DNA of 64,000 bases from Oceanospirillaceae bacterium (GTDB lineage: Bacteria > Pseudomonadota > Gammaproteobacteria > Pseudomonadales > Oceanobacteraceae), in the NCBI GenBank assembly GCA_002723385.1, contig PBNY01000096.1, positions 1-64,000 of the forward strand, written 5' to 3'. The notes beneath the pieces were generated by a model that was given only the letters and a program-made list of their open reading frames with translations, ran no database searches and had not been told where the DNA came from. The position numbers and the translations under genes were made by a program. Positions 43,899-52,104 of this stretch are shown piece after piece (position 1 is the stretch's first letter; each line of letters opens with the position of its first letter).

Positions 43899-44630
43899 AT
43901 GAAAATTGACCATCTGCGTAAACTGCATCAGAAAAAATACCGCCAGGAAAGCGGGCTGTTTCTGATCGAAGGGGAACACCTGCTGCTGGAACTTGAGCGC
44001 ACCGCCCTCGACGGCTGCACCATTTACGTTACCGAACGCCATAAAGCATGGCAGTCCCGCTTTCCGGTCAAACTCATCAGCGAACGCCAGATGGCGCAAA
44101 CGTCGGAAACCCGTTCTCCACAGGGGCTGCTTGCGACAGTGCCCACGGATGCCTTGTCTCGGTCCACGCTGGCACTCACGTCAGATTCTGACGCCAAAGC
44201 AACTGAACGCTGTATTTATCTTTACGAAGTTCAAGATCCGGGAAACCTCGGTACCATACTCAGAACATTGGCCTGGTTTGGCAACTGGCGCTGTCTGCTC
44301 AGCCCCAACAGCGTCGATCCATTCAACAGCAAGGTCATCCGCAGCAGCATGGGCGCTATTTTTCACGTGCCACTGGAACTCGGCGTGCCACTGGAAGCCA
44401 TCGAACAAAGATTCAGCAGTGTCGCCACACTGGATATGAATGGAAAACCGCTCACGGAAGCTGCCAGCCAAACTCACGATTGCCTGGTGTTCGGCAACGA
44501 AGCGAGAGGGGTTCCACAACAGGCACTGCCGGATTCGGTGGCGCCTTACACCATTCCGGGTAGTGGGTTGATTGAATCTCTGAACCTGGCGTCTGCCGTC
44601 AACATGGCAGTGTACGAACTATCCCGCTGA
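43899..44630 (+). CDS. TrmH/SpoU-family RNA 2'-O-methyltransferase
   Basis: This is a 243-residue SPOUT methyltransferase. The N-terminal substrate-binding region starts HLRKLHQKKYRQESGLFLIEGEH, and the C-terminal domain has the knot motifs NLGTILRTLAWFG, FGNEARGVP and PGSGLIESLNLASAVNMAVYE. These enzymes methylate ribose in rRNA or tRNA; the target here is not certain. I use ATG 43899. Its stop lies within the end of the convergent kinase gene, overlapping it by 12 bases. Confidence 0.9.
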   Translation: MKIDHLRKLHQKKYRQESGLFLIEGEHLLLELERTALDGCTIYVTERHKAWQSRFPVKLISERQMAQTSETRSPQGLLATVPTDALSRSTLALTSDSDAKATERCIYLYEVQDPGNLGTILRTLAWFGNWRCLLSPNSVDPFNSKVIRSSMGAIFHVPLELGVPLEAIEQRFSSVATLDMNGKPLTEAASQTHDCLVFGNEARGVPQQALPDSVAPYTIPGSGLIESLNLASAVNMAVYELSR

Positions 44631-46427
44631 GGACGTTTGCCGGAGAAAACGGCGTGCTTCGCAAGAAAAGCACTTCCATTCACTGTGCAGCTGCTCCATC
44701 GGCTGTTCCAGACTGGCGATGACAGATGTCGTTGAAGACAGCTGATCCACTTTCTCCATCGCACGGTCGAGATTTGCCGCCGCAGCAGCCAGAGTGGTCG
44801 CCTTCACGGAGCTGGCATCGGTCTGCAAGCCACTGACGAGGATACGAGCACTCTTCCATTGGCCAGATTTGACTGCCTGCACCAGCAGCTTCATATCGGC
44901 TTCGTGCTGATCGAGGATCAGTTGCAGTGCGCTGGAGAATGCCAGTAACTTGCCGTTGAACCCCTGCTCAGCGGCATTAGCATCGTAGCGCTGGAGTTCC
45001 TTCCCCTGACCACGACCCTTGCCATTCGGCGTCACAACACCATCTGACGACCCGGTCGTAGCCGAACCAGATAACTGCGACGACAATTCAGAGCGATCAT
45101 CGACAGTAGCGACCGTCCGGGCCAAAAAACGCGACAACACCTGCCCCAGCTCGCGAACCTTGATGGGTTTGGTGATGTGTTCGTCCATGCCGGAATCCAG
45201 ACTTTCAACGCGATGCTGATCTGAAGCGTGGGCGGTCATGGCAATAATCGGAACATGGAAGCGATTGGACTCTCTTGCACGAATCAGGCGAGTGGCCTCA
45301 AGACCATCCATCACCGGCATCTGAACATCCATCAAAATAGCGTCGAAACGTTGGTGGCGGGTGATTTCCACCGCCTCTCGTCCATTCACGCACAACTCGA
45401 CGGCCAGATTCAGTTTCTCCAGCATGTGTATGGCGATGGTCTGATTCACCATATTGTCTTCGACCAGAAGCACTGTCTGGCCGGAAAACGTCACATCTTC
45501 CTGTAATAAAGGTTGTATGGCGACCGGTGTATCGCTCGGTGACAAGGGCAAGCGCACCGTGAAGCAGCTACCAACACCCGGTTCGCTGTCAAGCTGTATC
45601 GTTCCCTGCATCAAATCGATCAGTTTGTGGGTGATCGACAAGCCCAACCCGGTTCCACCGTAGTTGCGCGTGACGGAACTGTCCGCCTGATCAAAGGCGT
45701 TAAACACCACCTCCTGTTGCTCAGGGGTCATTCCAACGCCAGAATCCTGAACAGAGATACGGTAGTTTTCTTCTTCCAGCTCAAGGCGAATGGCCACGTC
45801 ACCCTGATGAGTGAACTTGATGGCATTGGACACCAGATTATAGATAACCTGACGTAAACGCATTGCATCCCCCTCAATGCTGGCGGGGACAGAATCGGGG
45901 ATTTGCAAATTCAGTGAGAGGTTTTTCTTGGCCGCCGCGGCGCCAAAAGTTGCCGGCACCTGATTCAACACGGAAACCAGATTCATGGGCTCGATATTGA
46001 GTTCCATTTTGCCCGCTTCGATCTTGCTGAAATCCAGAATGTCATTAACAACTTCCAGCAAATGCTCGCCGGATTCAGCCGCTGTCGACAGCAAGCCGCG
46101 CTGATGGTCACTCAGTTCCGTGTCCTCCAGCAAGCTGATGATGCCCAACACCCCATTCAGTGGGGTGCGAATTTCATGACTCATGTTGGCTACGAAATCT
46201 GACTTTGCTTTTACCGCTGCCAACGCCTGATCGCGTGCTCGGGACAAATCCTGGGTGCGACGCAGCACCTCCTGCTCCAGACCATCGGAAATTTCTCTCA
46301 ATTCCTGGTTGATCAGGTACAGCTCGGTACTCTTCTGATTGAGAATCTGCTCGGCCTGCTTGCGGGCATTTTTTTCCCGTTCATAGCGGCGTTTCAGCAA
46401 CTCATAATCACCCATACGCATATCCAT
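44619..46427 (-). CDS. Soluble hybrid histidine kinase with receiver and degenerate Hpt
   Basis: This is a 602-residue kinase with no membrane helix. An N-terminal coiled coil (residues 8-75) leads to HisKA with His84 in NMSHEIRTPLNG, HATPase with NAIKFTHQGD, DSGVGM and GGTGLGLSI, and a receiver (about 318-435) with Asp367 in LMDVQMPVMDG and the KPI lysine. The last 110 residues fold like Hpt but where the active His is expected (AHxLKG) the sequence reads VSGLQT, so phosphotransfer onward is unlikely from this domain. It has no sensor domain of its own and probably takes input from a partner. It is convergent with the SpoU gene. Confidence 0.92.
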   Translation of the reverse strand: MDMRMGDYELLKRRYEREKNARKQAEQILNQKSTELYLINQELREISDGLEQEVLRRTQDLSRARDQALAAVKAKSDFVANMSHEIRTPLNGVLGIISLLEDTELSDHQRGLLSTAAESGEHLLEVVNDILDFSKIEAGKMELNIEPMNLVSVLNQVPATFGAAAAKKNLSLNLQIPDSVPASIEGDAMRLRQVIYNLVSNAIKFTHQGDVAIRLELEEENYRISVQDSGVGMTPEQQEVVFNAFDQADSSVTRNYGGTGLGLSITHKLIDLMQGTIQLDSEPGVGSCFTVRLPLSPSDTPVAIQPLLQEDVTFSGQTVLLVEDNMVNQTIAIHMLEKLNLAVELCVNGREAVEITRHQRFDAILMDVQMPVMDGLEATRLIRARESNRFHVPIIAMTAHASDQHRVESLDSGMDEHITKPIKVRELGQVLSRFLARTVATVDDRSELSSQLSGSATTGSSDGVVTPNGKGRGQGKELQRYDANAAEQGFNGKLLAFSSALQLILDQHEADMKLLVQAVKSGQWKSARILVSGLQTDASSVKATTLAAAAANLDRAMEKVDQLSSTTSVIASLEQPMEQLHSEWKCFSCEARRFLRQTSSAG

Positions 46428-49085: not shown

Positions 49086-49529
49086 ATGACAGACACGACT
49101 CAAATTGAACCCGGTATCAGTTCCGATCAGGCACTGACCCACACCTTTCGTTTCGACCAATTCAAGGTTCGCGGAGCCACTCATCTCGAAACCGAATTCA
49201 CCATTGACCAGGCGGGCAACTGGACATCAACCAGCAAAGTGCTGACCAAAGACATCCGATTCAAGCCCTGTGTGACTCTGTTCGTGGAGTTCTTTCTGGA
49301 GACAGATGGGCCGTTTCCGGATCCGGTTGGCAAACCGCCGACGGACTGGCATCCAAAGGAAATCTGGCAAGAAGACTTTAGCAAGAAAGAAGAAAAGACC
49401 GTAAAAAGCCAGGGGCAGCATGACTATCTGGCTGCAAATTTTCAGCAGCTGGCCAATCAGGCTCAGGCCCGTCTGAAAATGCGGGTCAAGAAGCGCCCTG
49501 GGTTACTCGATAAACTGACGAAGTCCTGA
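49086..49529 (+). CDS. Hypothetical protein, no recognised family
   Basis: This is a 147-residue protein without signal peptide or membrane helix. The first half alternates charged and hydrophobic residues as in a beta-sheet (FRFDQFKVRG, FTIDQAGNWTSTSKVL), the middle is Pro/Trp-rich (DGPFPDPVGKPPTDWHPKEIWQ), and the last third is a basic helix. Base composition resembles its neighbours. It is bracketed by the tktA terminator and a long hairpin, so it is its own unit. I cannot assign a function. Confidence 0.65.
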   Translation: MTDTTQIEPGISSDQALTHTFRFDQFKVRGATHLETEFTIDQAGNWTSTSKVLTKDIRFKPCVTLFVEFFLETDGPFPDPVGKPPTDWHPKEIWQEDFSKKEEKTVKSQGQHDYLAANFQQLANQAQARLKMRVKKRPGLLDKLTKS

Positions 49530-49605: not shown

Positions 49606-50148
49606 TTAAAGGACGTATCCGAGAAGCACAAAGACCGCCAGTCCGCTGCCACTCAGTACCAGAGTTGGCCCCTTCAGTTTGGGCGCCATAATCCCCAGAT
49701 ACAGTCCTGACAGCATGATCAGAATCAAGCCGGCAGCGAGCAACTGTTCAACGAATCGGAACACCACCGGACCATGTCCTTTATGCAGCTCGATTAATCC
49801 GGCAATCAGGCTTGGTTCAATTTTGGTGATTTTCACACCATTGTCCGCTGGTTCCAGCAAATAGTGTGTGCTGCTGGTCGGCCTGGTATAGAGTCGCTCA
49901 CCTTTAACCTTGACGTAATCGAAGCTGAATGAAATTCCTGCTTGCTGCAAAAGCCCGGAAACGTCTTTCTCCAGGTCATTACTTTTTCCATTCAACTGGA
50001 CATCCTGCAATTGGGTAACCGGCGTTTTCACCATCTCCCCCTTGATACCCAACAAATACAAACCACCTGTCAAAGCCATGACCAGAATAAAGGGTGCAAA
50101 GAAAGCAGCCAGATATAAGTGTATTGAAACCAGTAACTTACGCGACAC
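49606..50148 (-). CDS. PepSY-associated membrane protein
   Basis: This is a 180-residue inner-membrane protein of the PepSY_TM type. A first helix (LVSIHLYLAAFFAPFILVMALTGGLYLL) with its conserved H and GG is followed by a periplasmic PepSY-like region (about 40-115) and two more C-terminal helices. The GTG start at 50148 has GGAG six bases upstream; a TTG at 50160 is less likely. PepSY_TM proteins are often linked to iron or heme reduction, but no such neighbour is present. It is convergent with the unknown gene at 49086. Confidence 0.8.
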   Translation of the reverse strand: MSRKLLVSIHLYLAAFFAPFILVMALTGGLYLLGIKGEMVKTPVTQLQDVQLNGKSNDLEKDVSGLLQQAGISFSFDYVKVKGERLYTRPTSSTHYLLEPADNGVKITKIEPSLIAGLIELHKGHGPVVFRFVEQLLAAGLILIMLSGLYLGIMAPKLKGPTLVLSGSGLAVFVLLGYVL

Positions 50149-50288
50149 TGTGATCTCCAAAGAGTAAAAGGAACAAGATTATCAGTCATGCTGAATCGAT
50201 ACCCGCATATGGGCGGTTTATACTGTCGATCAGTACCAACTTTTCCGAACGGCAACGCCCGACCCCGTCGAGCAAGAGCGAGCATTAT

Positions 50289-51536
50289 ATGAGCCACCAC
50301 CCATTGTTGACAGATACCAGTATCCCGGTTTCGGTAACGCTGGCAGCCACCATCGGCCTGAATGAGGCGGTGTTGCTGACGGTCATCAATCAGGTAGCAC
50401 TGGGCCAGCCTGCACAACAAATCGTGGTACGACGCGACTTGCTTCGACAGCTGATGCCGTTTTGGGACGACCTTACCATTCGCCAGACACTGACCGCATT
50501 GTGTGACAAAGGTTTACTGGTGCTTTCCGGCCCAATGTACCCGGAAGCTCGCGAGCTACATTTGGCCTTTGTACAAGAGCAAACTGCTCCTGTTCCTTCA
50601 CCATCACGACCGGCTCCGGTTTTCACTCGCCAGCCGGATTCTCATCAGCCTGGCCATTTGCAGCCAACCGCTGAAGCGTATTCTGGAACAATGAATCGGA
50701 ACGCCCATCATCATTCACATGTCCAGGAAACCAGCACCGCTGGCCAGCCCCCAGACTCGAGAACCGGGACTGTTCAAGTCAGCGACTGGAAACCGTCGGA
50801 AGATACGCTGAAACGGTTACAACAGCATGGAATACCTGCGTCTTTTTCCTGGGCACAGCTGGATACCTTTTTGCTTCAGTCACAAGAGCGCGGCCAGAAC
50901 CGAAATGACTGGAACACCCGCTTCTTTCGCCACGTAAAAAGCCAGTGGGTATTCACACAGAATGATGCCCAGCGCCAAAAAAATCGCTATGAGTCCGCCA
51001 CTTTTCAGGTGACTCAGGATGAACCCAAACCGATTAACGGCCAATGGCGCCCCAGTTCGGATGCCATGCAAATTCTGCAACGCTCCGGGGTTGATCCCCA
51101 ATTTATTGAAGACGCTATACCGGAATTTGTCCTTTACTGGTCTGAACGCGGCGAAGCCCACAAAACCTGGAACAGCAAGTTTATCCAGCACATAAGGCAG
51201 CAGTGGGCCCGATACAGCGCCTCGCTGGAACATTCGAACCTGCCGCTGCCGATTTCATCCGATTGGCAGCCCGCCGCTGACTGCTTTGACATCCTGGCCA
51301 TGGCGCATATCGACCCTGAATTTGCCCGATCGCGTGTCGCCGAGTTCGTACTCTACTGGCGCGACTCCGGTCAGGTTCACAACAGCTGGAACAGCCGCTT
51401 CCTGCAGTACATCAAACAACAGTGGGCCAGCCAGCTGGCCAGACCGGAGACTCAAAACGATGGACAACGCTCTGCTGAACCGGACTACTCAACAGCTGCA
51501 GCCAGCCTCCAGCGACTCAACGATACCGACTGGTGA
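50289..51536 (+). CDS. DnaT-like replication protein with three tandem DnaT-type repeats
   Basis: This is a 415-residue protein. Residues 10-85 look like a winged-helix replisome-organiser domain (IGLNEAVLLTVIN, LMPFWDDLTIRQTLTALCDKGLLVL). After a low-complexity linker come three 55-residue repeats at about 166-220, 252-306 and 325-379. Each starts with W-x-P-S/A and ends W-N-x-F-x-x-x-x-x-x-Q-W, and they match the DnaT C-terminal DNA-binding type (primosome, PF17948). The 3' end overlaps the lambda-P-like gene by 77 bases. I infer a role in loading the replicative helicase; E. coli DnaT has only one such domain. Confidence 0.8.
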   Translation: MSHHPLLTDTSIPVSVTLAATIGLNEAVLLTVINQVALGQPAQQIVVRRDLLRQLMPFWDDLTIRQTLTALCDKGLLVLSGPMYPEARELHLAFVQEQTAPVPSPSRPAPVFTRQPDSHQPGHLQPTAEAYSGTMNRNAHHHSHVQETSTAGQPPDSRTGTVQVSDWKPSEDTLKRLQQHGIPASFSWAQLDTFLLQSQERGQNRNDWNTRFFRHVKSQWVFTQNDAQRQKNRYESATFQVTQDEPKPINGQWRPSSDAMQILQRSGVDPQFIEDAIPEFVLYWSERGEAHKTWNSKFIQHIRQQWARYSASLEHSNLPLPISSDWQPAADCFDILAMAHIDPEFARSRVAEFVLYWRDSGQVHNSWNSRFLQYIKQQWASQLARPETQNDGQRSAEPDYSTAAASLQRLNDTDW

Positions 51537-52104
51537 ACGGCGTCAGGCAACAGTCGATCAGAAGACCGCCATCAACCAGATCTTTGAGCTGTTTCGGTTC
51601 AATTACCACAACCAGTTTCTGAAGGCCTTTCCCGATCACGGCACCCTGATCACGGCCAAAAAACTCTGGTCGGGGTTGCTGCTGGAATATGCACCGGAGG
51701 TCATCATGCAAGCGGCTGAACGCGCCGTGAAGGAGTCCAGCTACCTGCCGAATGTACATGAAGTTATTCGTCGCTGTGATCCAGCCGGTAGCATGGGGCT
51801 ACCAGCAGTACACGCCGCGTATGTTGAAGCCTGTCGTGCACCTTCACCCAAGCAGGAATACCCCTGGAGTCATCCGGCGGTCTATTACGCCGGTCGTGCC
51901 AGTGACTGGTATTTTCTCGCCAATACCCCGGAAGCCCAGGCTTTCCCGGTATTTGAACGCAATTACCAGATTCTGCTGGGGAGAATTCAACAGGGCGAAG
52001 ACATCAGTCTTGAAGTAGACAAGGCCTTGCCGGAAACCATCGAACAACCACTGGCAAGGGAGGAACAGCGCCAACGGATGTCAGCGCTCAAAAATACGCT
52101 CTGA
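51460..52104 (+). CDS. Lambda P-like replication protein (putative helicase loader)
   Basis: This is a 214-residue protein resembling replication protein P of lambdoid phages, which brings DnaB to the origin. Family-like blocks are INQIFELFRFNYHNQFLKAF, LWSGLLLEYAPEVIMQAAER and SSYLPNVHEVIRRC. It starts at ATG 51460 with GGAGA nine bases upstream and lies inside the last 77 bases of the DnaT-like gene in another frame, so the two are translationally coupled. No phage gene surrounds it; bioB follows convergently. Helicase loading for the host chromosome is an inference. Confidence 0.75.
   Translation: MDNALLNRTTQQLQPASSDSTIPTGERRQATVDQKTAINQIFELFRFNYHNQFLKAFPDHGTLITAKKLWSGLLLEYAPEVIMQAAERAVKESSYLPNVHEVIRRCDPAGSMGLPAVHAAYVEACRAPSPKQEYPWSHPAVYYAGRASDWYFLANTPEAQAFPVFERNYQILLGRIQQGEDISLEVDKALPETIEQPLAREEQRQRMSALKNTL

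Follow-up and report, generated by a model that had tools for sequence, protein, structure and literature searches.

A gene pair encoding a DnaT-repeat protein and a lambda P-type protein probably serves as the replicative-helicase loader of an Oceanospirillaceae bacterium

We analysed a window of 64,000 nucleotides (nt), positions 1 to 64,000 of contig PBNY01000096.1 from an Oceanospirillaceae bacterium (assembly GCA_002723385.1), in which two overlapping genes encode a protein with three DnaT domains and a relative of the lambda P helicase loader. The pair fits the DopC/DopE system, and gene 1 and gene 2 are named accordingly below. The concept of such a domesticated pair is already published: Brezellec and colleagues (GBE, 2017) are said to have described a lambda P-type gene (DopE) with an O-derived partner (DopC), reportedly resident in bacteria without dciA and dnaC/dnaI and proposed as a helicase matchmaker. 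Judging from sequence comparisons, the pair probably loads the main DNA-unwinding enzyme in its own bacterium and in many relatives, replacing the usual bacterial loader. We put at roughly 85% the probability that it is the cell's own replicative-helicase loader, in which DopE would open DnaB and DopC would act as recruiter through DNA contacts and its C-terminal tail. The first-pass annotation had proposed a domesticated phage-type primosome, a reading that agrees with what we found: the pair is chromosomal, resident, present through whole families, nearly exclusive of dciA and placed among ordinary genes. The two genes and their parts are the following.

50289 to 51536, + strand: dopC-like gene (gene 1), 415 amino acids (aa); winged helix, linker, three DnaT domains, acidic/aromatic C-terminal tail
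50289 to 50582, + strand: N-terminal winged-helix domain (about aa 1-98), from an AlphaFold2 model with structural match to initiator N-domains
50778 to 50954, + strand: DnaT domain 1 (aa 164-222), domain model E 4.2e-24; PF17948
51036 to 51212, + strand: DnaT domain 2 (aa 250-308), domain model E 5.9e-31; structural match 4ou6, Z 8.6
51255 to 51431, + strand: DnaT domain 3 (aa 323-381), domain model E 5.9e-30
51446 to 51449, + strand: Shine-Dalgarno-like GGAG for dopE, inside dopC, read from the sequence ten bases ahead of ATG 51460
51460 to 52104, + strand: dopE-like gene (gene 2), 214 aa; lambda P-type helicase loader
51460 to 51536, + strand: dopC/dopE overlap, 77 nt, encoding the dopC tail and the first 25 dopE residues in different frames
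51519 to 51533, + strand: NDTDW, the end of DopC (aa 411-415) and a putative docking peptide for DopE; in alignments A2 and A3, D412 and W415 do not vary
51571 to 52008, + strand: lambda P-homologous core of DopE (about aa 38-183), the PF06992 stretch 96-241 of a 272-aa reading, shifted by 58

Gene 2 had been likened to phage P, and three comparisons bear this out. PF06992 matched with E 7.9e-9 (35.9 bits against a curated cut-off of 26), phrog_109 'P-like helicase loader' matched with E 1.1e-17, and the top PDB match of the structural model was lambda P on DnaB (9oa1 chain Z; E 4.8e-5, TM-score about 0.5). The list of open reading frames (ORFs) started this gene at TTG 51286, giving the 272-aa reading; we chose ATG 51460, which fits the homologues. 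The first 26 residues of the DopE model are of low confidence, and the overlap encodes the first 25. DopE relatives are intact and conserved, with 35-69% identity to the window's protein. The nearest named ones belong to Oceanobacter, Thalassolituus and Bacterioplanes, in a comparison from which records very near the window may be missing.

In DopC, PF17948 (DnaT) matched over three stretches (E 2e-65 for the whole protein, 216.9 bits against a curated cut-off of 25), so that both proteins stand above the curated cut-offs of their families. The three repeats had first been placed at 166-220, 252-306 and 325-379; with a domain model built in this analysis, which also detects a single DnaT stretch in E. 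coli DnaT as had been claimed, they lie within a few residues of these positions. Residues 244-308 of the DopC model fit DnaT84-153 bound to single-stranded DNA (4ou6; Z 8.6, 64 residues, 2.4 A; VIA-align), and 9zbu/9zbt are further DnaT structure matches. The N-terminus, already suspected of being winged-helix-like, appears as such in the AlphaFold2 model: residues 1-97 fit the N-domains of replication initiators 4pt7 (Z 8.0) and 5kbj (Z 7.8), with unrelated winged helices tying. DopC scored 10.1 bits with PRK02854, the NCBIfam equivalog for primosomal protein DnaT, below its cut-off of 201. The lambda-O domain PF04492 did not match DopC, which has a winged-helix N-domain and a lambda O-type tail. 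Given that the DnaT domain is familiar from a restart protein, DnaT itself, the pair might be a restart-only primosome, comparable to PriA-DnaT-DnaC delivery, with another factor loading DnaB at oriC. We consider this unlikely, as neither DciA nor DnaC turned up in the bacterium's own genome.

We surveyed the distribution of the pair in 194 genomes of the order. Searches with alignments were used because family searches can miss here: the PF06992 search of the own genome overlooked the window's DopE and found only a copy on contig 57. Alignment A1 detected DopE in 120 genomes, with a single match in the own genome, and a protein search detected DopC in 114. DopE gives the safer count, because the 114 include weak matches to short proteins and, in family f35, several matches per genome that may be phage proteins. 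DciA was found in 68 genomes with alignment A5, which rests on 13 DciA proteins from survey genomes, and in 61 with Pfam; the use of A5 took seven genomes out of the group with neither protein. DopE and DciA occurred together in one genome only and were both missing from seven, six of which are under 90% complete, so that 119 of the 120 DopE genomes had no DciA (Fisher 1e-42, kinship ignored). Counted by eye by family label, 28 families have DopE and 17 DciA, f20 alone has both (in one genome), and 2 have neither. No DciA match was obtained in the own genome. An E. coli DnaC query matched 54 of the 194 genomes at E<=0.001 and only two at E<1e-20, both of them DciA carriers, and PF04492 was present in eight. 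A figure legend in PMC5109545 lists three Oceanospirillales species without dciA and dna[CI]. The own genome has a single resident copy, whole families carry the pair, and the counts are clear genomic support that a large part of one gammaproteobacterial order relies on a phage-type pair in place of the DciA used by the rest.

All 114 DopC genomes have DopE, and six DopE genomes gave no DopC match. Inspection of all six loci showed that in five (L319, L320, L322-L324) the protein search had overlooked a tail-bearing protein with one or two DnaT domains encoded upstream; in the sixth, G060 (L325), the protein encoded upstream lacks a DnaT domain. Five f35 genomes (G034, G071, G100, G128, G153) have 3-10 DopE-like matches each, the top-scoring of which appears resident; the others adjoin phage-type initiators in the loci inspected (L044-L046).

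A prophage remnant, in which leftover O/P-type replication genes have no cellular role, is a further explanation for such a pair. The pair is homologous to phage O/P-type genes, and contig 57 of the own genome carries another lambda-P gene, which falls outside the resident DopE group on a long branch in the tree and lies beside an ORF that probably encodes a phage-type protein. Against this stand the presence of the pair through whole families in a pattern complementary to dciA, the intact and conserved state of the genes, and the neighbourhood. We ran 19 other ORFs of the window against Pfam or PHROGs, ten of them against PHROGs, and found no phage structural or integration gene among them. 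The first-pass annotation had stated that the window contains no integrase, terminase or capsid gene and that the neighbours are ordinary; for the absence of those phage genes, the check covers these 19 ORFs. We regard the remnant as very improbable.

Every ORF that Pfam matched is an ordinary bacterial gene; the neighbours include MutL, amidase, YjeF/Carb_kinase, QueG, SpoU methylase and transketolase, together with a biotin-synthase-type radical SAM protein, a DAO oxidase, AbgT, bestrophin and SRP54 proteins. PHROGs matched only two of the ten ORFs, an SRP54-type protein and a histidine-kinase-like ORF (44619-46427) that was run against PHROGs only. The ORF at 49606-50160 is PepSY-like, under the Pfam cut-off, and that at 49086-49529 (+ strand, 147 aa) matched nothing in Pfam, NCBIfam or PHROGs within the limits applied; relatives of the latter's product occur near the pair in Oceanobacter kriegii (L059) and at L081. 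Synteny across 32 loci was limited: several neighbours, namely transketolase, the histidine kinase and the 49086 ORF, recur only in O. kriegii (L059). L062 and L081 have one apiece in common with the window, and the other loci showed weak synteny or none.

The 77-base overlap and the ribosome binding site of gene 2, both noticed at first pass, are confirmed by the coordinates (51460-51536) and by the GGAG at 51446-51449. The overlap is conserved. With the DopE frame read from its earliest possible start, 75 of the 78 named loci with both ORFs overlap (the exceptions are L087, L110 and L137), and the relative frame is the same in all 75. In a second set of 30 loci, a homologous ORF follows in the dopE-type frame at 29, the thirtieth stopping at the contig end; here the frame itself served as a filter, and homology was seen in the alignments. 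A promoter scan was near chance, with 2 found against 1.1 expected.

Conservation is also pronounced at the end of DopC. Within the last 24 residues, [DN]-x-[SDN]-W was found in 142 of 144 DopC rows, which are not independent, as some genomes occur in two sets and were kept in. The named loci hold 816 other ORFs with a length of 200 aa or more, and 5 of these have the pattern. By set, the tail was present in 78/79 named loci, 30/30 of the second set, 15/15 short, 10/11 mini, 3/3 two-domain and 6/6 further long forms; the misses are L087, which appears truncated, and one mini DopC reading TDYQW. Besides a DnaT domain, the tail is the only part kept across all DopC architectures seen. It could be conserved only because its DNA also encodes the start of DopE, without a function of its own. 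In most loci the tail does lie within the overlap, where an S-x-T-x-A-G stretch of DopE is likewise conserved. This explanation is nevertheless rather improbable: the tail is retained at L110, L137 and L322, where the two genes stay apart even if the earliest possible start is taken (L323 is from the genome of L110), and in the O proteins of lambda, phi80, GF-2 and Yen210.17, where the overlap with P is 4 nt.

The C-terminus of lambda O reads TNTDWIYGVDL; LTNTDWIYGVDL; LDLTNTDWIYGVDL. According to PMC6022878, an amber mutant with 294 of the 299 residues of lambda O fails to plate without suppression, the last five residues are essential, and the C-terminal region of O was suggested to bind P. 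These five residues directly follow TDWI. We propose, from the shared motif, that the DopC tail may dock P or DopE. In a broader form, D-x-[SDN]-W would be the plug by which lambda O-type initiators, phage and domesticated, capture a P-type loader, the overlap with the loader's start locking the genes together; we give this form an even chance. A contact between tail and DopE, if true, may explain both the use of the pair and why the extreme C-terminus of lambda O is reportedly needed. Among phage initiators, a W in the last 15 residues was present in 16 of 18 encoded beside a P gene (lambda, Ab31, VW-6S and 15 hand-picked for spread) and in 1 of 9 with other partners (a DnaB-type helicase, an AAA+ protein, a primase/helicase, DnaC or no loader as neighbour). 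QHHSV-1 was excluded from this comparison, as its upstream initiator is not annotated. Searching viral contigs with lambda O retained 80 loci whose best segments were all 99-100% identical; this set was not used.

Two other tails were seen in passing. The partner of the P-like gene at L325 ends in GDISWLWES. At L143, on a contig filed as viral and possibly a chromosomal piece, DopE falls among the long forms and the upstream tail reads LTDCSWATG. In our literature search, judged from listings and with most subscription papers out of reach, the tail and DopC/DopE were not found described beyond PMC13326638, which cites the DopC/DopE work, and the reference lists. Possibly new are the tail, the fact that lambda O shares it, and the variety of architectures.

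Several observations weigh against the pair being the cell's own loader with a docking tail of the lambda kind. The sole genome with both DciA and a P-like gene (G060, locus L325) has a partner without a DnaT domain. The absence of dciA rests mainly on the relatives, because the own assembly is 90% complete, and the E. coli DnaC query, which gave no match in the own genome, was not accompanied by searches for DnaI-type or unknown loaders. A Foldseek search with the full DopC model returned nothing at E<=0.001 and listed mostly winged-helix regulators. The strict tail, [DN].[DSNTG]W, occurs in only 6 of the 18 P-paired phage O proteins, so that only the looser W criterion is general among phage initiators, and a similar pattern was found in 6 of 51 ORFs picked automatically upstream of P in viral contigs, many of these picks being doubtful. 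The phage sets are moreover small and hand-picked, with near-duplicates (phi2 has the tail of MD8 and HK446 that of JEP4, and SEN22 resembles Oslo).

If the pair is the cell's own loader, DopE would bind and open the DnaB ring as lambda P does. The recruiting role would fall to DopC, whose winged helix and successive DnaT domains would touch double- or single-stranded DNA at the fork or the opened origin, the repeats being putative single-strand binders. The D-x-[SDN]-W tail of DopC would capture DopE, placing DnaB on single-stranded DNA. Such loading might serve oriC, restart or both.

DopC carries one to four DnaT domains, with or without a winged helix. Three are the usual state in the nearer relatives and no oddity of this genome: of 79 named loci with a DopC ORF, 70 have three, five (Microbulbifer) have four and four have two, some of these being cut ORFs. 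Four domains were seen in Microbulbifer-type DopC at L053-L055, L111, L112, L114, L128 and L129, the last five assigned to the genus by name. In families f6, f27 and f38 one domain follows an N-terminal part that is longer (253-317 aa, counting from the first start) and is read as a winged helix from its similarity to the window's DopC. A single domain in a small protein (143-178 aa) is found in f2, f8 and f35, and three f47 genomes have two domains without the long N-terminal part. The 'mini' DopC of L306-L315 and L049 (f2, f8, f35), about 150 aa and without the long N-terminal part, lies upstream of DopE and mostly has an LTD-x-SW tail.

A DopE/P tree of 92 rows placed the short forms in one clade (100/100) and the mini forms in another (100/99); a single resident clade was rejected (approximately unbiased test, p 0.005). 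It was not rejected (p 0.41) after 15 rows were dropped, namely long branches, including resident L310, and group-breaking viral rows, a choice that favours one clade. An RpoB tree with one genome from each of 40 families and E. coli needed 6 label changes. A second, with 39 families after removal of the f9 row, a wrongly extracted ORF, again needed 6, and one Dop clade was not rejected (p 0.26). The pair may have been domesticated once or several times.

DciA, whose distribution and that of DopE are mutually exclusive, presumably does the same job; it belongs to a separate protein family (PF05258). The nearest phage architecture seen is that of phiV10, Tyrion and RothD, where a protein with a DnaT domain (E 3e-5, 4e-7 and 8e-4) adjoins a P gene; unlike DopC of the window, these have one such domain and a tail of another type (PHWNSPEAWEDFL and alike). 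In E. coli, a DnaT domain protein is likewise encoded upstream of a helicase loader, but that loader is DnaC, whereas the window's is P-type, and DnaT itself has a single such domain and lacks the W tail. Lambda O and P share with the pair adjacent genes, a P-type loader and an NTDW tail at the C-terminus of O. They differ in that O has no DnaT domain detectable with our model and binds, by annotation, iterons within its own gene, and in an overlap of 4 nt instead of 77. Lambda O-P looks a closer functional analogue than the dnaT-dnaC pair named at first pass, because gene 1 ends in a lambda O-type tail that has no counterpart in E. coli DnaT.
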